Notes under the pieces: model-generated | Database searches by the model: none | The model's input: only the letters and a program-made list of their open reading frames with translations | What the model was told of the DNA's origin: nothing | Program-made: the position numbers and the translations under genes | Shown: piece by piece, positions 43,776 through 64,000 of the stretch | How positions within the stretch are numbered: the stretch's first letter is position 1 | How the letters are laid out: each line of letters begins with the position of its first letter | Source of the DNA: Hydnum rufescens UP504 | Taxonomy: Eukaryota > Basidiomycota > Agaricomycetes > Cantharellales > Hydnaceae | Assembly (NCBI GenBank): GCA_014904985.1 | Contig: MU128971.1 | Span: 164,303-228,302 of the forward strand | Direction of reading: 5' to 3' | DNA length: 64,000 nucleotides

Positions 43776-46700
43776 AGGTAGGTGACATACATAAGTCATC
43801 ACTTCCAGAAGCAAACCATTTCAAAATAAGCACACATCTCCCAGAGTTGCCACAACCACTTTTGTGTTATTTGGCCACCTAGGACATGTAGATAGGATGT
43901 ATTTCTACAACTTCTTGGTCTCAGAATGTCCATATATGGCAGGGATCAGAAGTTATAATGCAAATGGTTTGTAATGTTGGAGATCAACTTCTTTATGCTT
44001 CCCAACTGCGGCAATGCAGTTGAGCTAATTTAGGTTTGGATAATTTTGCACTCCAGAGTGGGCTGAATGTATTGATTATATAATATGCTTTCCTAATTTG
44101 GAAAGCCCTGCTCACATTGCCCTAGTCCCCCCTGCCTGTCTATGGCTCTCAGGAAGAAGCATAAGTGTGCTCAGAACTTGGGAGCATACTCCCAAAGGAG
44201 GGTAAGGGACATATTCATGATCTCAGACACTTTTTCAAACCTCACTGCCATTGAGTTTCAGAATCTGAATTTGGCCCAACCACCCACCCCTCCACTCCCC
44301 TACCTCCCCCCACTCTATCACATAGACCAGTTCTGGTCCACTCCAGCAATTCAGAGTTTTCCTCAGATTTTGGACTTGATTCTGACTCTGATGACATTTC
44401 TTCAGACATCTTGGATGATGTTGACTTGGTTCATATGGCCCCGACCACAGAAGATATGTTCAAAACATGTCTGTTTGATGCCCAGAAGACTCTAGAGAAG
44501 CTTTCAAATGTCAGCAGTCACATATCTGGCCACAGGGTGAAGTACTCAGGTGCCACTTTGAATGGCAAGCATGCAATATGGACACAATATCTAGACCAGA
44601 GGAAGAAGAAGAACCTTGATCACCAAATTGAGGAGATGAAGAGGAAGACTGCTTATGACCACAAGAAATGTGTGATAAACCATTATTTCTCCCCAAAATG
44701 TGATATCACCTCCTCTGCCCCCACCCCTGCCATTGATACTGATCTCCTTGATGTTGGATTTGATGATCCTGGGTTCTCCAAGATGCCACAAGTACAACAA
44801 ACCCAGCCCCCTGATGTCAATAATTCAATTCCATCCTTACCAATATCTTCTCCTTGACTCCCCACTCTCAGCCCCATGACAGGGGATGGGACAGATTCCG
44901 AGGAGGGCCTCAACAGTCCTGATAGGACCACATGCTCCATTCATCCATTCATTTCCGCACCTAAAAGAGAGGATGCAGCTGTGGCTGCTGCCCAACTTGA
45001 GAAGGTCATGCAGCCTCCCCGAAATAAAGGTGCAGGCCACAAGGATCCAGGGCTGGATTTTCCATCTCAGATGCAATATGAGCAGATGCTCATGGTCTTA
45101 TGCACATATGGAACTAAGGCAACAGCCTTCATTGACAAGAAAGGCTGGATTGAGGCATCACAATGGGTTTTGGCTGCATGGAATAGAGGTGACTCTTATA
45201 CATCATGCCTTCAGAAGTGGTGTTGCACATACATGTTGGACCTCACAATGCTGCCAAGGAATATATATGGGACATGGAAGTCATCAATACTCCTTACAGA
45301 TGAGGATCTCAGAGATGAAATCCAGACTCACCTTTGTGGTATCAGGCCTTACATTGCTGCCATGGATATTGTGCAATTCTTGAGCACTCCAGAGATGAAG
45401 ATGTGACTATCGAACAAGCCGATCTCACTTCACACTGCACAGCACTGGCTTTGCATTATGGGCTACCATTGGCAGAAGGAATGGAAAGGCCAGTACTCCG
45501 ACAGCCACGAGTGTGAGGATGTCACATGATATTGCCAGAGTGTGTTTTTCCAGCTATGGCAGAGTATGCAAAGTCAATGCAGAAGTGGGATGATGAGGGT
45601 AATGAGGAAGTTCCTGCATTGCCCCCTGAAAAATGGACCATTGTCTGGTTCCATGATGAATCAATCTTCTATGCTCATGATCACTGCAAAGTTTGCTGGG
45701 TTCACAATTCCGAGTCTGCCAAGCCATATGCCAAGGGAGATGGTGCTTCTCTGATGGTTGCTGACTTTGTATCTGCTGACTATGGCTGGCTGCAAGGAGA
45801 TGACTCTGATGCTTGCATTACACTTAAGCCTGGCAAGAACTGTGATGGATATTTCTCTAATGAAGAAGTACTGCAGCAAGCCACTTGGGCAATGGATGTC
45901 TTGTGCCAAAAGTACCCAAATGAGAGGCATGTTTTCGTCTTTGACAACACTCGTACACATGCTAAGCGCACTGAGGATGCACTCTCTGCTCTCCATATGC
46001 CTTGTAACCCAAGCATTGGGGTATTACTGTCCCCACTTGCAATCCAACTGGAAAAACCCTCCATCTCCCTAATGGCAAGCCACACACTGAGATCAAACAC
46101 ATGGCTGACAACAAACTCTTTACTTCCCAGATGATCACCCAATGCACCCTGGCAAATTCAAGGGAATGGCACAGATTTTGAAAGAGCATGGACATCTGAA
46201 TGTTAATTCCCTTTGTGTGCAGTGTCTGAACTTCAGCTGCCAGTCTATCACCAACAACAGCTGCTGTTGTCAGAACATTCTTTTTTGTTCAGACAACTTC
46301 ATCAATGTTCTGTGCCTGCTAATGACACATTGCCAAGCCAGAGGCTTTGATGTGCTGTTCCTACTGAAGTTTCATTGTGAGTTGAACTTCATTGAACAGG
46401 TGTGGGGCTATGCCAAGCAGGAATATTGAGAAGCACCACTGTCTTCAAGGATTGAGGATGTTGAAAAGAACTTGAAGGCTGCACTCAATATGGTCTCCAT
46501 ACTTTCAATGTGGTGGTAGGTGACTCAGGGTCTTGAATCCCCACCACAGATCCATCTGATTCACGTCTTTAGGTTCTCAAATCAGTCTCTGCAGTACATG
46601 GACAGATATCAACATGGATTGGATGGCCAAGAAGCTGCATGGGCCATGAGAAAATATCATGGGCACCATCAGATGCCTGCAGATGTGACATGGGAGATGA

Positions 46701-49862: not shown

Positions 49863-51750
49863 TCATAATCGGTCATGTGATCGTCCAATGGCTGGAAGTT
49901 GTGTAATTTCGCTTTTTCTGATACTGGATGTTTTTATCTTCCACACCGGAAATGAGACCCCATTCTCTTCATAAAGGTCAGCTCTGACTTCACTGAATAG
50001 TGTGTGAGAAATCACATCACTTAGATGTACATCACTGTCATCAGTAATATTCTCTGTAAAGGGAGGTTCATCTTCATCTCCATTACCCACAAGAGTGGCT
50101 TGATTTTGAGTAGCAGGCCACATGGACAGGGCTTTCCCTTGACTAGTCTTCTTCTTCCAAGGCACTGAACATGGCTGCAAGCGGGGAGCTGATAATTCTG
50201 CCCAAAATGTGGGATCAGCGGTTGGCAACTCTCGAAGGGATTGGAGTACAGCAGGGCTACGCAAGCTATCCTGTGAAAGATTGAATTCCCCTGAGCGGCA
50301 CATCTCAAATGCCTAGGAATAATCTATTTGAGATATTCTTCATGATCCATGAAAGAAAACCCACCTTCAAAACAATATCGGGCTTGTTGATACATCAGAA
50401 TGCATTTACAAGTGTGTGTGGACTCCGATCTCACAATGTAATGACCGATGTGTCCAGATGTATGGATTTGGGATCTTTCCCATCTTCAAGCTTGCATAAA
50501 ACTTCTTCAACTATGGCCCCATGCTGTGTCCGCTGAACAGAATGTTTCAGAATATGCTGAATCCCTACATCACATGGTTGAAAAAGGCCAGTACATCCTC
50601 CGGGGACATAGCTGAGGATGATCCAAGGGTAAAATTTGAATAGCCAAGCCCTAAGGTCCTCGGATGTGTGAACTGGCCAGACATCAATTTGCCATATGGC
50701 CTCATGGCTGAGAGGAAGTGAGAGTTTGACTTTTTTGGCAGTAAAATATGGAACAAGGATGTGTTGAATAAAAGATTTCATCGTGTCACCAGTCACCCAG
50801 TATGTATCAGTCATTGAGGATTCAAACCGAAAGCCAAGAGCCATGGCCTCATCATACCCATCGCAGGTGGGGCTTGGGAGACTCTTCAGGCTTTTGCTTT
50901 GGTATATTGCTGGAATGGCAGCAACTCCCCACTTGCTGACACAGCAACATTCAAGGTGAATGCCCGCTTTTCTTCCTGGCTGATGGCAGATACTTGTTTA
51001 ACACCAATTGCATCATACGTTAAAGAGGAGCTTTGATGATAGATCACTTGTGTCTGGTCTGAATTCACTCGCAAGGCTGCTGGAATATTGTAGTCTCGAA
51101 TTGATAGGGCCTGTTGAAGCAATGCATGGCAGATTTGGTAGTCGGCATCCTCTGGTATTTTCTGGGCTGCCCTCATTGTATGCCATAGGTTCCACCGCAG
51201 TTCATGATGCAGGAACTTCCTTACCCATGATTTGCTAGCATGGAATATGCTTCCGTCCTTTGTAGCATTGGTAAACAGAGTCGGTTCTGCATCTTGGATC
51301 ATGGCAATGATGATGCCTCAGATCGTTACAATTGTCAGTGGGCATCCAGTTTCACGAAGATTCTGTAGCATCGCCTTGATCTTCTCAACAAGAATAGGGT
51401 AAGGGGTCTAGGATTTTCTTTGTTAACAAGTTCTTTTAATGAGATCATTTGATGACTTGATTTTGCACCAGGATTCCCCAACGAGTGTTTTCCCCACCAG
51501 GACTGTAGCCCTTTTCCACCCAGGCCAGTGTTTCATCACTCCAATGGGGCTTGGGACCACTACAGTCAATCATCCTGCCCACCACTTGGGATTTTAGGTT
51601 TTTAAAGAGAGTTGGACTCTGATGCTGAGCCTCCTTCACAATTTCAGTTGGAGACATCTGCCATCCCATGGCTTTTGCTGCATCCTTGAGAATTGAGAAC
51701 AAGGTAGGCTGGTGCCAATTTGTTGTTCAGGCATTGGACACTTGATTGAT
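49863..51750 (-). pseudogene. Decayed pogo/Tigger-like DDE_1 transposase
   Basis: From 5' to 3' on the minus strand the frames read MFSILKDAAKAMGWQMSPTE, GRMIDCSGPKPHWSDETLAW, RVNSDQTQVIYHQSS with EEKRAFTLNVAVSASGELLP (first catalytic Asp region), TYWVTGDTMKSFIQHILVPY, IWQIDVWPVHTSEDLRAW and SYVPGGCTGLFQPCDVGIQ (second Asp and PGGCT block), then a C-terminal tail SGEFNLSQDSLRSPAVLQSL. This order fits DDE_1 transposases of the pogo group. Frames break at about 51,440, 51,300-50,880 and 50,310-50,430. Terminal repeats were not found, so element borders are unknown. Confidence 0.72.
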
Positions 51751-55295: not shown

Positions 55296-55495
55296 AAGCT
55301 CCTGCTATGTGGGCACACAAACTGCCAGGCTACATAATAGAATCCACAAGTCAGAATCAAAGGCCCCAAGCTCCTGTTGTACAGGCACACAGACTGCCAG
55401 GTTACATGACAGAATCCATTAGAGTCAAAGGCCCTCAGCTCCTGCTATATAGGCATGCAGACTGCAGGGTTACATAATAAAAGACAACAGTTTGA
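55296..55495. repeat. Three tandem copies of an about 70-bp unit
   Basis: Each unit begins AGCTCCTG(C/T)T and contains GCA(C/T)(A/G)CA(A/G)ACTGC(C)AGG and TACAT(A/G)A. Copies begin at about 55,297, 55,369 and 55,438. Non-coding. Confidence 0.75.
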
Positions 55496-56343: not shown

Positions 56344-57130
56344 TCAATTTGATCCTGACATTACCCCCCTTTTAGGACTTGGCATCATGATGAGTTTTCT
56401 TTGAGTCCAGTCAAATAAAGTATGCTGGGGGACCTCAGTAAAATTTTTGAAGTGGGTGAGAGGTAGGGTATCCCAGATAGCAGTTGCAATATGACATGGG
56501 GAGTTTGGATGGAGGTGATGGAAGTCCTCAAGGAGCTGTTTAGAGTTGCTGAGGTTTGATTCTGGTTCCCAACTGTTTTCCTCAGGGCCATAGCCCTTCC
56601 ATTTAATGAGGTATTGCAGTTTTGTATGATAGAGATGACTGTCCAAGATTGTCTCGACCTCATATTCTGTGTCACCCTTTGCTGTAATGATCAGTTTGGG
56701 TATGGGGGGCTGGCATTGCTCAGGAATACAATCAGGTACAAATGGGCAGAGTTTGCTGACATAGAAAACTGGGTGGATGCATTGGAAGTTCCAGGTGAGT
56801 TTTAGCTGATAGGCTGATGGTGAGATAACTGTGTCAATCAGAAAGGGACCAAACCATTTGTCATCAAACTTCTTGGTAGGGTGTGTTGTTGTGATGTTTT
56901 CTGCATCAAGCCAAACTTTATCTCCTTTTTCATAACTGGGTGCAGTTTGTTGATGAGCATCATAGAAGCATGCCATGTCATGTGCTGCTTGGTGAAGAGC
57001 AGACTTGGCTTCTTCTGTGGCTTGTTTCATACACTTCACAAACTCATCAACAGCTTCCAGGCAGGTTTCCTGAGTAGGCTCTGTGCCCAGGCATGGGTGT
57101 TGCAGGCTGGTCAGCCACTTTTCTGCATCA
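56344..57130 (-). pseudogene. Chromovirus (Ty3-type) Pol fragment: integrase C-terminus and chromodomain
   Basis: The frame reads DAEKWLTSLQ from about 57,130, then EAKSALHQAAHDMACFYDAH, EKGDKVWLDAENI, KKFDDKWFGPFLIDTVISPS and HPVFYVSKLCPF (integrase C-terminal GPY/F-like module), followed by a chromodomain: EYEVETILDSHLYHTKLQY, LIKWKGYGPEENSWEPESNL. These domains bind chromatin and steer integration. The upstream integrase core, reverse transcriptase and Gag are absent: coding homology stops abruptly near 57,130, next to a short inverted repeat (TTAGATATAAT/ATTATATCTA) and the hairpin array. So this is a truncated element. Confidence 0.85.
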
Positions 57131-57321
57131 TATTAGATATAATGAGCCTTGCATTTATTATATCTAGCTAGATGTTTTTACCAGGGGGCCCCCAGGGGCC
57201 CCTGCAATACAATCAAGGGGCCCCTGCCAGATTATGGATTATTAATTTATATATTTATTATTATTAGTATTATATTAGTATATACATCCATAGGCTCGCC
57301 CAGTGGGGCTCACCCTGTGCC
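57131..57321. repeat. Left outer end of the mirrored array: GGGGCCCC-rich segment
   Basis: Positions about 57,179-57,233 contain AGGGGGCCCCCAGGGGCCCC and AAGGGGCCCCTG. A related arrangement in inverted order lies at 63,400-63,463. An AT-rich strip (57,236-57,290) follows. These are taken as the outer ends of one structure. Confidence 0.55.
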
Positions 57322-57732
57322 CAAGAAGAGCAGCCAGAGGCTGCTCTTCTTGTGCAAGTGTAGCTAAAGAAAAAATACGTACCTGGAATTCACACCAGTT
57401 GGGGCCTGGGTTCCATTTGGGTGATCCCTCAAGGGGGTGTTGCTCACAGTTTTCATTTGTGTGGGCCTTCATGGTTTTGTTTGCAGTTTTTGTTCATGGT
57501 GTGTCATTCGGTGGGTCTGTGGTCAGGGGTTTGTGTGGGCTCTGGTCCAATATCTAGAGAACTAATTAATGAATTAGTTAAACATGAATGCAGTGCAAAA
57601 AGAGCAGCTTATGCTGCTCTTTTTGTGCCACAAGAATACGGAATAAAAATATGAAATAAAAAATACCTTGTAGTACCCCACACCCACTGCAGTGGTGTGG
57701 GGTACTGGGGCCATGTACTCTCACTCATACAT

Positions 57733-58270
57733 TGTTGGAGGGACAAATCCCTACTATGTGCAAACCCTATCCGAGGATGATCTTTCAATTAAATGAACCA
57801 TTTCTCATGTCAATCCGGATGTCAATTCCCATGTTGTCATTCATTTGAGAACAAGCTTGAATCCCATATGCCTAGAATCCACAAATCCACATCATTCCTT
57901 TACCTATACATGAGCCAATTTATTGTTCATCTGTGGCACTTCAACAGGCCACCCTAAATTCCACCTTTTTATGCCATACCTCAATGTGGCAACAGCAATT
58001 CAACTTGCTTGCTTTGTTTGATCTTCAATCAATCCCACTTCTGATACATGCTTCCTGTTGCCTCGAGGGCAACTCTAATGAATTGTGATTATGTAATGCA
58101 ACAGATTACACACCTGGGCCTTGATTCCGACTTGCAGACTTGTCACATGACAAATAGGGGCTAATGCAGTGCTCTCAAGGAGTAAACATGGAATATCTCC
58201 CTCAGTTTTGATTGGATCGACTTGAAAAAATAGCTCGCAGAAAGCTATGATTCATATCTTTCCGAAGATA
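57733..58270 (+). repeat. LTR-like repeat copy 1
   Basis: It begins TGTTGGAGGGACAAATCCC and shares, in the same order, many blocks with 63,466-64,000: CATTCCTTTACC, CAATTTATTG, ACTTCAACAG, GAATTGTGATTATGTAATG, TGTCACATGA, ATAGGGGCT, GTTTTGAT. It has fewer CpGs than the other copy. The TG start suggests an LTR, but no matching internal Gag-Pol lies between the copies. Confidence 0.6.
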
Positions 58271-59250
58271 CTAAAAATGAGCCAAACTAATCAAAGTGCC
58301 CCTTCCAGGTCAATTTTACTATGTGTTTCATATATCCCTTCAGTATTTTTCAATTTTATCAGTCAGTTTTGATCCAATTCATTCGGGACAAGCACACCTA
58401 GAAAGCTGTCAACAGTCTGCATCCAATGGCAGCAAGGGAAAAATGAGCAGATTAAAACTTGGCTCTCTACAATTTAACTCCCCCATGTCTCATTCCATTA
58501 TTGCCTCCGCTTTTTTTGATTATTAATGGCAATTATTCTTTTCCCCTCTTATATCTGATGAAGAGTACGTCTAGGACGACCAGTTCCACCATTCCCCAAG
58601 GGATTCTGTGCAGTAGGAGAGGAGGAATAGCTTGGTTAAGCCATATTCCCCTATTCTGACTTGATTTTGGAATATCTCCTTCAGTTTTGAAGCTTTTGAC
58701 TTGATTTCTTTTTCATCATTTTTGCCTTAACCCCACCTTTCCGCCAGTTACCATAGAATTTTTCTGTGATGTATATTAAGTGCAGGAGATGTGAATTTCT
58801 ATAGTTTTTCCCCCTCCCCAGTTTTGAGGCACTGATGTATTGCCACTGGTTTCTTGGGTGGATTCTATCAAGACTACTACACTTTGTCTAGGGCCTCAAG
58901 AGGAGAGCCTTAGGGTGTGGTTTTGTGACCCATATTCATTCTTTGCTCTATTGCTTGAGCAGGTGTTGCTTACAGCATTAGATTTCTATCCAAAAAGACC
59001 TTCCTTCCTTTGAGCCTTAACATTCAGATTGATCCCGTGGTCCCCTCTTTTCATTCTCGATTCCATATCATGGACTGTGGCTGGATTCCTCCCTCTGTTT
59101 CCTGTCTACAACATATGGGGGTTTGTATGGGGGTTCATGCAGGTGCCTGTCATTCAGGTGTCGAAAAGGGGGGTGGGGGTTTTGCCTTGGTATTTATTTG
59201 CCAGGGACATTGAGACCTATGGGAAAAACTTTTAAGTTAGTTAGAAATTA
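58271..59250. other. Spacer in left arm, no gene
   Basis: The stretch holds further TTTTGATC/AGAAAGCT-type words related to the LTR-like repeat (about 58,320-58,425 and 58,675-58,700). Nothing is coded. Confidence 0.35.
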
Positions 59251-59869
59251 AAAACCACACAAAAAGAGCAGCTTTTGCTGCTCTCTTTGTGCAGGTGTAG
59301 CTACCTTATATAGTACCACACACCCACCACAGTGGGTGTGTGGTTCCTGAGGCCCTTGTTGGGTGCATTGCTGTGTGTTGTGTCCTCATTTGGTGTGGTG
59401 TTGTATGTTGTGTTGTTGCTGTATGTTGTGTCATTGGCCCATTGCTGTTCAGCACATTGCTGTGTGTCATGTTGCCACTTGGGCTCGTGCCATTTTGTGG
59501 ATTATCATTCCAGCTTGTACATAGGGGTTCTCCCTGTGCCCTGTCATTTGGGCATTGATAAGGGGGAGTACAGGGGGTTTTGCATTGGTATTGGTTTGTG
59601 AGAATGGTTAATACCTATAGAATAATATTGTTAAATTAGTTAAAAATTAAACACCACACAAAAAGAGCAGCTTTCACTGCTCTTTTTGTGTGGTTGTAGC
59701 TACTGGGGTGTGGGGACTCAACTTATATGGGACCACACACCTGCTGTGGCAGGTGTGTGATTTCTGGGACCCAGATTGGGTGCAGTTGTGTCCTCAGTTG
59801 GCATTGTGGTTGCATCCTCATTTGACATGGTCATGTCCTCATTTGGCATGGTGCTGCATGCCCTGTCCT

Positions 59870-60095
59870 TGGCATGTTGGCATGTCATGTTGGCACATTG
59901 TGTTGCATTGGCATGTCATGTTGCATTGGCATGTTGTGTTGCATTGGTGCATCATGTTGTGTTGGCATGTCATGTTGTGTTGGCATGTGTGTTGCATTGG
60001 TGCATCATGTTACTGTGTTGCGTTGGCATGTTGTGCTGGTGTCTCATGTTGTGTTGGCATGTCACATTGCTGTGTTGTGTTGGTGTTTGGGCTCT
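59870..60095. repeat. GT-rich minisatellite (TTGGCATGTCATGTTGCA-type)
   Basis: Units of about 15-20 bases made of TTGGCATG, TCATGTTG and TGTGTTGG are repeated a dozen times with variation. Open frames over this part only reflect the low complexity. Confidence 0.7.
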
Positions 60096-60336
60096 GGTTG
60101 TTCTGTGGGCTATCATTGTGCATTGGATGAGGGCCCAGCTAGAATAATTAAAAGCATGTTAGTAAAAAATTTGAAAGCAGTGCAAAAAGAGCAGCTTTTG
60201 CTGCTCTTTTTGCACTGTTGTATCTACTAATAAAAAAAACTCACCTTGTGACCACACACCCATGTGGCGGGTGTGTGGTTGCATGGTTGTCTTTCCAGGC
60301 AGTTTGTTGTGGTTGCAGAGATGGAAGAGCAATGCA

Positions 60337-60990
60337 GATTCAACACTGGCAATTGCTGATACTTAAGAAGTGCCCAAGTGCTGGCACTACAGGCACAGTA
60401 CACATCAATAGCAAGCATGTAGATATATAATAAATACTATATAATAAATATTTGTCCAAAAAAAAAAGGGAAAATGACAATGATAATGGGTCAGAGCCCA
60501 ATAAGGCATGATATGGCTAATTGCAAGTGGATTGGGCCACTTCTATGCATCAGAATTGCCCCAAATTTAAATATATCTATGGCATATATGTGCCCTACAT
60601 AGGGAATTAGCCCCATTGCACATTGTGGGCATTTTTCAATTTTCCACGCCTTCAATTCCCTAAATAGGGAATTGAAGGCATGGAAAATTGAAAAATGCCC
60701 ACAATGTGCAATGGGGCTAATCCCCTACATAGGGCACATATATGCCATAAATATATTTAAATTTGGGGCAATTCTGATGCATAGAAGTGGCCCAATCCAC
60801 TTGCAATTAGCCATATCATGCCTTATTGGGCTCTGACCCATTATCATTGTCATTTTCCCTTTTTTTTTGGACAAATATTTATTATATAGTATTTATTATA
60901 TATCTACATGCTTTGCTATTGATGTGTACTGTGCCTGTAGCACCAGCACTTGGGTGCTTCTTGAGTATCAGCAATTGCTGGCATTGAATT
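60337..60990. repeat. Central near-perfect palindrome, arms about 320 bp
   Basis: The two arms are complements from about 60,341 to 60,662 and 60,665 to 60,986, with only scattered differences; the loop at 60,663-60,664 is two bases (CCCTA-AA-TAGGG). Each arm contains the same blocks, for example GGCAATTGCTGATACT, CAGGCACAGTACACATC, TATATAATAAATA and GGGTCAGAGCCCAATAAGG. It is the centre of symmetry of the hairpin modules on both sides. Confidence 0.9.
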
Positions 60991-61039
60991 TTGCCACTAC
61001 ACAACACACCCAGCAACAAGGCAACAACATGACAACATG

Positions 61040-62830
61040 ACCCCGTGACCACACACCCACTGCTGCAGGTGTGTGGTCACAAGGTGAGTTTCCATTCTAG
61101 TAAGTACAACAGCGCAAAAAGAGTAGTGAAGCTACTCTTTTTGCACTGCTTTGAATCTATATACTAACATACTTTTATTATTTCAGATCATGGTCCAAGG
61201 CCCAAGATGAGAACCCATGACATTACAAGGGCCCAGACAGCAAGAACCAAACAAAAATAAACCACAGACCACCTGATGAGTGGCCCCTGAAACCACACAC
61301 CCGCCACAGTGGGTGTGTGGTAATATTTAAGGTAAGTTGCTTTTCCCAATAAATACAGTAGTGCAAAAAGAGCAGCTTTTGCTGCTCTTTTTGCGCTGCT
61401 TTGAGTTTCTCACTAACATATGTTTTAATATTCTAGGTCACAATATGAACCAATGTCCACACAACCCAATTGAAGCCATGCCAAATGAAGACCCAATGAA
61501 CACACCACCAAAACTGAATGAAAAACCAATGTGAACCAGACACCTGACCCGGTGGGTGTCTGGTTCTATCTAAGGTATGTAATTCTCATGTACCCAATGG
61601 CACAAGAAAGAGCTGCCAAAGCTGCTCTTTTTGCATTGCTTTAAATTTTTTAACTAATAATCTTTCATTCTAGGCATTGCCAGAAATGAGGACCCATAAA
61701 GCAAGCCCCCCTACAATGATAACACACCCCCAAAGGAGACCCATGAATGGTGATGCCCTACATGAAGAACCAAACCACACACCTGCTACTGCAGGTGTGT
61801 GGTTCTATATGAGGCATGTAATGCACCCCCAATGGTGCAAAAAGAGCAGCTTTCACTGCTCTTTTTGTGTCACTTTTGATTTTTTTAACTAATATTAATT
61901 CTAGCTATTGCCAGAAATGAAGACCCATGAGCAAGCCCCCAGAACAACAACACCCCCACAAATGACAATGGACCACACAAAGAGAACCACACACCTGCTA
62001 CTGCAGGTGTGTGTTTCTATACTCAGTATGTATGTACCCCTGATGATGCAAAAAGAGCAGCGAAAGCTGCTCTTTTTGCATCACTGTTGATTTTTAAACT
62101 AATGATTTTATTCTAGGTATTGCCACAAATGAAGACCCATGAAGAAAGCCCCCCCAGAATGACAACACCCCTGCAAATGATGACAGACCACACAAAGAGA
62201 ACCACATACCTGCTACTGCAGGTGTGTGGTTCTATACTTGGTATGTAATGTACCCCCAACAACACAAAAAGAGCAGTGAAAGCTGCTCTTTTTGTGTTGC
62301 TGTTAATTTTTAAACTCATGATTTTTTATTCTAGGTATCCCCACAGGTGAAGACCTGTGAAGCAAGCCCCCCCAGAATGACAACATCCCCATGAATGATG
62401 ACACACCAAATGAAGAGATGAACCACACACCCGCAGTAGCAGGTGTGTGGTTCTATACAAGGTATGTAATGTAATGCACCCCCAATGGCACAAAAAGAGA
62501 AGTGAAGGCTGCTCTTTTTGCGTCACTTTAACTTTTACTGATCTAAATTTTGTATTCTAGATCTTCCTTCCCCCCAATGAGTCCATGCCTGAGAACCCCC
62601 CAACCCACCTGAGAACTGTATGGGAAACTGGCAGTCGAAGGTACATGACCCCAGGCAAAAATGAGTACCACACACCTGCCAATGCAGGTGTGTGGTACTG
62701 CAAGGTATTTTTTTTTAAAACTTTCTACATCTACAGTGACACAAAAGGAGCAGCACAAGCTGCCCTTTGGCATCACTTCAAATTTTTTTTACTAATGTAT
62801 GTTATCATTCCATTCTAGGATCAAATTTGA
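61040..62830 (+). repeat. Right arm of mirrored hairpin array: eight intron-like modules
   Basis: Eight tandem modules of 210-250 bp each contain a GGTGTGTGG-type palindrome followed by an intron-like segment. Segments: 61084-61186, 61332-61436, 61575-61673, 61814-61904, 62026-62116, 62241-62334, 62462-62560, 62705-62818 (91-114 nt). Donors are GTGAGT, GTAAGT, GTATGT (four), GCATGT and GTATTT. Acceptors are TTTCAG once and TTCTAG seven times. An ACTAAC/ACTAAT-like branch motif precedes most acceptors. Inside each lies a hairpin of the AAAAAGAGCAGC type. The exon-like parts share ATTGCC, GAAATGAAGACCCATGA and CAAGCCCCC, but carry no common open frame. Confidence 0.85.
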
Positions 62831-63200
62831 AGCTCCTGAAATGACAACAACAGACAGCCATGACCCCCAAATGACCCTGCACAATGGTGAATCACCCAGC
62901 CATGCCTGTCCAAATGGCTAACAATGAGCTGGGTGAACCCCCCCTCCCAAGGACCTATTTTTTTTTTAAATTTATTCTAGGTTATCAAAAACTGGCTGAA
63001 CTCCCAATGAAGGAAGGGAAGGTACCACACACCTGCCCTAGTGGGTGTGTGGTGCTACTAGATAGTGTTTCTTTTAAAAAACATTTAATTTCTATGGACA
63101 GTACCACACACCTGCTAGGGTGGGTGTGTGGTGCTAAGTAGTGCTTTTTTTCTTTTTGATTTGTATGGACAGTACCACACCTGCCCAAGCAGGTGTTTGA
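62831..63200 (+). repeat. Decayed tail of right arm: three more palindromes
   Basis: Palindromes of the TACCACACACCTGC...GGTGTGTGGT type lie at 63,023-63,053, 63,102-63,133 and 63,172-63,197. Hairpins of the other type are lost. An acceptor-like TTCTAG remains at about 62,976-62,981. Confidence 0.7.
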
Positions 63201-63389
63201 ATTCTTGAATACAAATTAATGATGGGACCACAGAATGAAACCCTGGGTGGTATATGTATAATATAGTGATAATAAATAAATAATTATAAATGGAATCCCT
63301 GATATGCCCATATGGCCTGCTGTCCTGCAAGTCTGAGATTCTCTAAGTCAGACCATAAAAGACCATGACTTTTCCCTGATCATTTTCCA

Positions 63390-63465
63390 AGTTCAGAGCC
63401 AGGGGCCCCTGAGGCCCCTTGTCTGAGGGTCCAAAATCACCCCTGGAGGCCCCAGGGGCCCCCAC
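63390..63465. repeat. Right outer end of the mirrored array: GGGGCCCC-rich segment
   Basis: Blocks CCAGGGGCCCCTGAGGCCCC and GGCCCCAGGGGCCCCCAC occur here, the inverted counterpart of 57,179-57,233. The LTR-like copy 2 starts directly after it. Confidence 0.55.
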
Positions 63466-64000
63466 TGTTGGAGGGATAAATCCCTACACCATAGAATCCT
63501 CATCTGAGGCCATTTTCCTTACGAACAAAACAATTACATGTCACCACGCTCATTTAAATTTATTGTCATTTGTTTATTCAAGAAATCAATTGGATTCCCA
63601 CCCCTTTCCAACTCATAATATCGCTTCATTCCTTTACCATGTCCACCAGTCAATTTATTGACTATCCGTCGGACTTCAACAGTCCTCATCAAAAAGGGGC
63701 AGTTTATGCCCTTCTTCAAGTCCATTTTCTTTGGACAAGGCAATTCAACTTGCCATTCTTCCTCAAGACTGTATGGCTTGTCTGTTCTTCCAAGCCATCC
63801 TACTGCCTTAAGGGTGACGAATTGTGATTATGTAATGACGCGGACCAGGCCTAGTTCCGATTCTGGACTCACGGATCTGTCACATGATCCAGATAGGGGC
63901 TGCAATACTCTGAAGGAGTATGTTTCGAATTTCTCCGTCATTTTTGATCGGATTGACTCGAAACGACCGCGCCCAGAAAGATACGAATTGTACCTATCGA
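63466..64000 (+). repeat. LTR-like repeat copy 2, cut by window end
   Basis: It begins TGTTGGAGGGATAAATCCC and keeps CpG-containing versions of blocks that are CpG-poor in copy 1, for example ATGTAATGACGCGG. It ends in GACCGCGCCCAGAAAGATACG, the complement of the tandem unit at 49,430-49,845. It runs off the window. Confidence 0.65.

Follow-up and report, generated by a model that had tools for sequence, protein, structure and literature searches.

A repeated fold-back element

The window analysed here is a 64,000-nt stretch of the Hydnum rufescens UP504 genome (assembly GCA_014904985.1, contig MU128971.1, positions 164,303 to 228,302 of the forward strand). Towards its right end lie a minus-strand chromovirus Pol open reading frame (ORF, 56344-57132) with Chromo and SH3_Tf2-1 domains, a mirrored structure of hairpin-bearing, intron-like modules and a repeat resembling a long terminal repeat (LTR). 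We found that the mirrored structure represents one copy of a non-coding transposon that is repeated in the genome; this copy extends from 57104 to at least 63465. Its left terminus is inserted in the Pol ORF, in agreement with the initial annotation, which had described a Pol gene cut off at this end. The borders proposed there (57176..63463) were revised: the left end was moved to 57104 (CAGGCTGGTCAGCCAC), and the body reaches at least 63465, the right terminus being lost from this copy, with the LTR-like repeat beginning at 63466.

The mirror centre lies near 60664, where the inner arms (60459-60662 and 60665-60868) are 98% complementary. Weaker inverted pairs join the outer arms (57.6 kb to 61.6 kb and 59.2 kb to 62.5 kb), giving the long inverted arms of repeated units that characterise fold-back elements. 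GGGGCCCC blocks are present at both outer ends. This mirrored design with outward modules and similar outer ends had been recognised from the window alone, and outward-pointing module blocks were found across a set of 21 loci (the window and 20 further ones). We counted 13 GGTGTGTGG palindromes (ACCACACACC..GGTGTGTGGT) within the mirror structure and 13 AAAAGAGCAG..CTGCTCTTTT hairpins inside the element. A more tolerant hairpin pattern occurred 16 times in the window, 14 times in 57321-63357 and twice elsewhere; the occurrence at 63357 was spurious on reading. In 12 of the 21 loci, the window among them, the two arms are 94-99% alike over their inner 200 bp; in L033, L034, L036 and L046 the figure is 58-78%, and in the other five no such centre was found. 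On comparison by eye of the window with L039, some differences were present in both arms of one copy, suggesting homogenisation or paired change. Two further near-perfect palindromes, unlike the element centre, were seen in L042 (around 251 and 7720).

The structure belongs to a DNA transposon that is present in many copies and has defined termini and target-site duplications; further copies and flanking duplications had both been named as checks in the initial annotation. Searching the same genome (539 contigs, 63.2 Mb in total) with one window module gave 340 matches; of 1354 candidate places, 40 were scored. All 20 further loci, drawn from the best matches, hold modules, 18 of them in both orientations. 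Termini were set by alignment edges. The left terminus, CAGGCTGGTCAGYCAC, has 276 exact copies in the genome, and the right termini are CACCTTGGTCAGTCA (352 copies) and CAACCYGGTCAGCCAC (42 copies); all reversed controls gave 0. Target-site duplications were identified by eye in six of the seven copies with both ends, and are 8 bp long in L031, L032 and L037 and 7 bp long in L039, L043 and L044. None was found by eye in L038, for which both ends are known.

Pairing of the listed termini (100 left, 100 right and 42 of the other right type) gave 30 left-right pairs spanning 3.6-12.0 kb, 16 of them at 4.4-6.0 kb. The centre core produced 596 strand hits genome-wide (up to 3 mismatches; reversed control 0). 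Because an intact centre can match on both strands, the number of centres is about 300 or slightly higher. Of the 22 pairs that were compared with part of the centre and terminus lists, 10 had a zero-mismatch centre between their ends. In L033, L046, L049 and L050, module blocks switch orientation within 10 kb, and these loci probably contain nested or adjacent fold-back elements.

Intron-like signals in the modules

We took 270 hairpins from the 21 loci regardless of splice motifs. A hairpin passed this test if a GTRNGY donor lay within 70 nt upstream and a CTRAY branch site plus a YAG acceptor within 95 nt downstream. In total, 217 hairpins passed, 215 of them in one orientation only; shuffled flanks passed at 4.75% per orientation. 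The real orientations form blocks that point outward. This is strong evidence that the splice-like signals noticed in the initial annotation occur far above chance. The typical module reads AAG ahead of GTRNGT, then the hairpin, ACTAAY and TTCTAG, with donor, branch site and acceptor in the order and at the spacing of a spliceosomal intron. In the right arm, eight introns were listed, in accordance with the eight clear modules first reported, and the coordinates of the three introns given as examples (the first three in Table 1) proved exact.

A second picker, which favours consensus donors, made 225 intron calls on both strands, including antisense and overlong artefacts such as minus-strand 61172-61063 in the window right arm. 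The donors were GTATGT in 99 calls, GTAAGT in 37 and GTGAGT in 32, and AAG preceded the donor in 129. TTCTAG was the acceptor in 146 of the 225, the branch-to-acceptor distance was 16-24 nt in 190 and the length 89-117 nt in 204. T content was 0.15-0.16 in the exon flanks and 0.36 in the introns. Among the first members of 45 intron clusters, GTATGT occurred 10 times, GTAAGT 8 times, GTGAGT 6 times and other donors 21 times. We did not count the divergence by site class between subfamilies (62 of 73 module pairs) as evidence, since the modules had been selected by their splice motifs.

The median intron is 102 nt long, of which the hairpin takes 40 nt and leaves 62 nt (quartiles 56-69). Fungal spliceosomal introns have a similar consensus (GTRNGT donor, CTRAY branch site, YAG acceptor) and likewise measure about 60 nt, the length found here outside the hairpin. 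The modules differ from them in their internal 40-nt stem-loop, their tandem array and their non-coding host element. For comparison with the host, intron-like patterns of 50-64 nt numbered 13 in window positions 1-43000 and 4 in the reversed control, which are small numbers.

Table 1. Features of the element copy in the window (window coordinates)
Feature	Position	Strand	Details
Left terminus and subterminal hairpin	57104..57184	+	CAGGCTGGTCAGCCAC...; exact terminus pattern 276 times genome-wide, reversed control 0
GGGGCCCC-rich block, then AT-rich stretch	57184..57280	.	minus-strand AATAAA at 57254
Left arm, outward modules	57562..60244	-	clear introns 60244-60139 and 57666-57562; interrupted by nested repeat
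Nested LTR-like repeat, foreign to element	57733..59112 (about 1.4 kb)	.	TGTTGGAGGGA...; inside left arm
Central near-perfect palindrome	60459..60868	.	204-nt arms, 2 nt between
Right-arm exon palindromes	61048, 61292, 61535, 61774, 61986, 62201, 62422, 62667, 63024, 63103, 63172	+	arm 61048..63202; repeat family D1
Intron-like	61084..61186	+	GTGAGT..TACTAAC..TTTCAG
Intron-like	61332..61436	+	GTAAGT..TTCTAG
Intron-like	61575..61673	+	GTATGT..AACTAAT..TTCTAG
Intron-like, GC donor	61814..61904	+	GCATGT..AACTAAT..TTCTAG
Intron-like	62030..62116	+	GTATGT..AACTAAT..TTCTAG; alternative donor GTATGT at 62026
Intron-like	62241..62334	+	GTATGT..AACTCAT..TTCTAG
Intron-like	62462..62560	+	GTATGT..TACTGAT..TTCTAG
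Intron-like	62705..62818	+	GTATTT..TACTAAT..TTCTAG
AT-rich stretch	63240..63300	+	AATAAA at 63271
Right GGGGCCCC-rich block	63399..63465	.	right ends known from sister copies L031-L033

Hairpins, folding and coding capacity

A second hairpin closes the exon in 175 of 224 modules (224 of the 225 calls entered this test), at a median of 7 nt from the donor; shuffling reduced this to 2 of 224. Compensatory pair types were seen both in the exon hairpin and in the intron hairpin. RNA folding gave z values of -6.96 for intron 62027-62116 and -6.39 for intron 61332-61436, with -3.70 for the antisense of the latter. The partial exon 61936-62026, which includes its hairpin, reached -4.98, and exon 61437-61574 only -0.77. 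The window gave no match in Rfam.

Coding arms were considered and rejected. The longest right-arm frame is 88 amino acids, spliced or unspliced. In the left arm the longest frame is 144 amino acids from M when spliced (with provisional donors) and 102 amino acids unspliced. Seven of the longer frames resembling the arms (159-214 amino acids), taken from the window and from sister loci, had no match in Pfam.

Relationship to KDZ transposons

At least 154 matches to the KDZ (Kyakuja-Dileera-Zisupton) domain PF18758 were found in the genome, with 150 of 584 candidates scored. Three of the listed left ends have a KDZ domain on the opposite strand, no more than about 3.1 kb further in. These left ends (L051, L052 and L053) match the window left end at 87.7% over 81 bp, 84.5% over 103 bp and 87.3% over 79 bp, respectively, and have the subterminal hairpin followed by GGGGCCCC blocks; at its left end the element thus shares a terminus with transposase-bearing copies. 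L051 (2.4 kb) comprises the terminus, open frames lacking a Pfam match and a KDZ domain (PF18758, E 1.9e-46), with a stop breaking the frame behind the domain, and gave no blastn match to the modules. For L052 and L053, of which the 0.5-0.6 kb next to the terminus was read, two blocks match L051 at 92-100% and the flanks are different. The KDZ frames of L051 run toward the left terminus, so the left arm of the element keeps the direction of the KDZ gene without its coding sequence.

According to Kojima 2025 (PMC12730594), Kyakuja elements lack terminal inverted repeats, end in CA..TG and make 7-bp duplications, and Dileera and Zisupton have 8-bp duplications; in the main text of that paper 'hairpin' and 'tandem repeat' are absent and 'palindrom' occurs once. 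CA..TG ends with a 7-8-bp duplication were found in six of the seven both-ended copies, the exception being L038. The element resembles KDZ transposons in these features and in the left terminus common with KDZ copies of the same genome, but it has no transposase and its body consists of intron-like modules in a fold-back arrangement. The window arms contain only short frames and no PF18758 transposase; it is not an autonomous KDZ element, and this lack is expected of a non-autonomous copy. Because the left end, the duplications and the terminal dinucleotides agree, the family is best read as a non-autonomous member of the KDZ superfamily.

An origin from hAT transposons was rejected, none of 90 PF05699 matches lying inside paired ends (by eye). 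A search for TET/JBP-bearing KDZ elements gave one match, below the cut-off, and NCBIfam had no match for the KDZ frame of L051 or for two ORFs of the window. Adjoining one KDZ match is L054 (G000:C5:445700-447040, partly N), a dispersed repeat that is also present in L032, L035 and L042.

Proposed mechanism and alternative explanations

The element is probably a non-autonomous KDZ fold-back DNA transposon with divergent non-coding arms of hairpin exons and short introns. KDZ transposase from transposase-bearing copies would cut the shared ends and move the element, mostly 4.4-6 kb long, in trans. The central palindrome, which we propose as a two-way promoter, would drive transcription outward to give two non-coding RNAs per copy. 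Each arm would represent a non-coding gene in which hairpin-bearing exons lie between short spliceosomal introns, and its transcript would be spliced many times. With its internal hairpin folded, an intron of about 100 nt would be shortened in effect to some 60 nt. The AATAAA stretches at 63271 and 57254 are possible 3' ends of the right-arm and left-arm transcripts, which would end there, before the termini. A gene-like body might be beneficial, for example through escape from silencing. That the element is mobilised in trans, transcribed from the central promoter and spliced, and that it benefits from being gene-like, are all steps that we infer from the sequence.

We also put forward, more tentatively, a possible wider role. 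The payload may be a pair of divergent non-coding genes of structured introns, selected since transcription and splicing aid silencing escape or mobilisation. With about 300 copies and up to about ten introns in each, the genome would perhaps hold thousands of transposon-borne spliceosomal introns. If spliced, they would offer a large natural collection of hairpin-containing transposon introns, with which the spread of introns, the influence of RNA structure on effective intron length and a possible shielding of transposons from silencing by splicing could be studied. The element also ties fold-back architecture to the KDZ superfamily. Long inverted arms of tandem subrepeats are found in Drosophila FB and in Galileo; the subrepeats described here differ in carrying splice-like signals and hairpins and in pointing outward, and the left end is of the KDZ type. 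KDZ ends and the fold-back shape are known, but in a limited literature check we know of no precedent for a body built from repeated exons and introns that each carry a hairpin.

Several observations weigh against a spliced KDZ fold-back transposon. If hairpins act in RNA, G-U pairs are expected to exceed A-C mismatches. The G-U fraction was 0.60 (bootstrap 0.54-0.65) in 197 intron stems, a small excess, and 0.52 (0.43-0.62) in 188 exon stems, no excess, so RNA-level selection is weakly supported for the intron hairpins and not for the exon hairpins. One junction pattern of a spliced retrocopy had no match in the genome. Of the four or five clear left-arm modules originally reported, two clear introns stood, the donors are degenerate in the modules whose hairpins lie at 59657 and 59259, and the outermost module (hairpin 57321) is doubtful. 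The second picker is biased towards consensus donors, and the 20 further loci were not sampled at random but chosen as the strongest matches to a single window module. With respect to the KDZ link, none of the 150 listed KDZ matches lay inside the 30 paired-end elements. No KDZ-bearing copy yielded a right end: a terminus-plus-duplication pattern had no match on contig C76, and the stretch read for the right end of the C5 copy was another dispersed repeat. Finally, the element has short imperfect terminal inverted repeats, whereas Kyakuja families are reported to have none (Kojima 2025, PMC12730594).

Since the G-U excess is small or absent, there is room for roles of the hairpins in DNA. The modules could be DNA features only, palindromic arrays for transposase binding or cruciforms, with the splice-like motifs as passengers of module duplication. 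The exon palindromes are 93% Watson-Crick paired, with no significant G-U excess, binding-site arrays are common near the ends of DNA transposons, and the modules are akin, so their common motifs partly reflect shared ancestry. However, passenger motifs do not readily account for a fungal splice consensus whose parts are correctly ordered and spaced and face one way only, for donors that vary between clusters yet mostly keep to allowed forms, or for the sharp difference in T content between exons and introns. We regard this explanation as unlikely, though it deserves some weight.

A source of small RNAs is much less probable still. Here the long inverted arms, if read through, would fold into a long RNA duplex by which the family or KDZ elements are silenced, but the outward, same-sense splice signals predict two divergent transcripts and none through the centre.

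We give slightly less credence again to an introner-like element, in which the module inserts into genes and becomes an intron. Introner-like elements are many intron-shaped units spread by transposition, and the modules too are hairpin-bearing, intron-shaped and numerous, some repeating GTAT at both intron ends. The mobile unit here is nevertheless the whole element, with the introns inside; the label fits poorly because termini and duplications bound the element and not the intron. Of the two nearest ideas named in the initial annotation, the fold-back transposon fits the shape and was kept, and the introner-like element was not.

An assembly artefact or chance palindrome has a negligible likelihood: perfect inverted repeats can be misassembled, but the 596 centre hits, the distinct insertion sites with duplications and the presence of modules in all 20 further loci, 18 of them in both orientations, speak against it.

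Other features of the window

The repeat nested in the left arm has a candidate 4-bp duplication, ACAT, and is 90.9% identical to a repeat in L035; sister copy L032 has no such repeat at the equivalent place. The LTR-like repeats at 63466-64000 and 57733-59112 have a common start, TGTTGGAGGGAYAAATCCCTAC, past which only short stretches are alike. ORFs elsewhere in the window include one for a DDE_1 endonuclease (50431-50997) and one with no Pfam or NCBIfam match (45517-46134). Near the chromovirus remnant, a tandem array with a period of 68 bp and 2.6 copies occupies 55296-55477.

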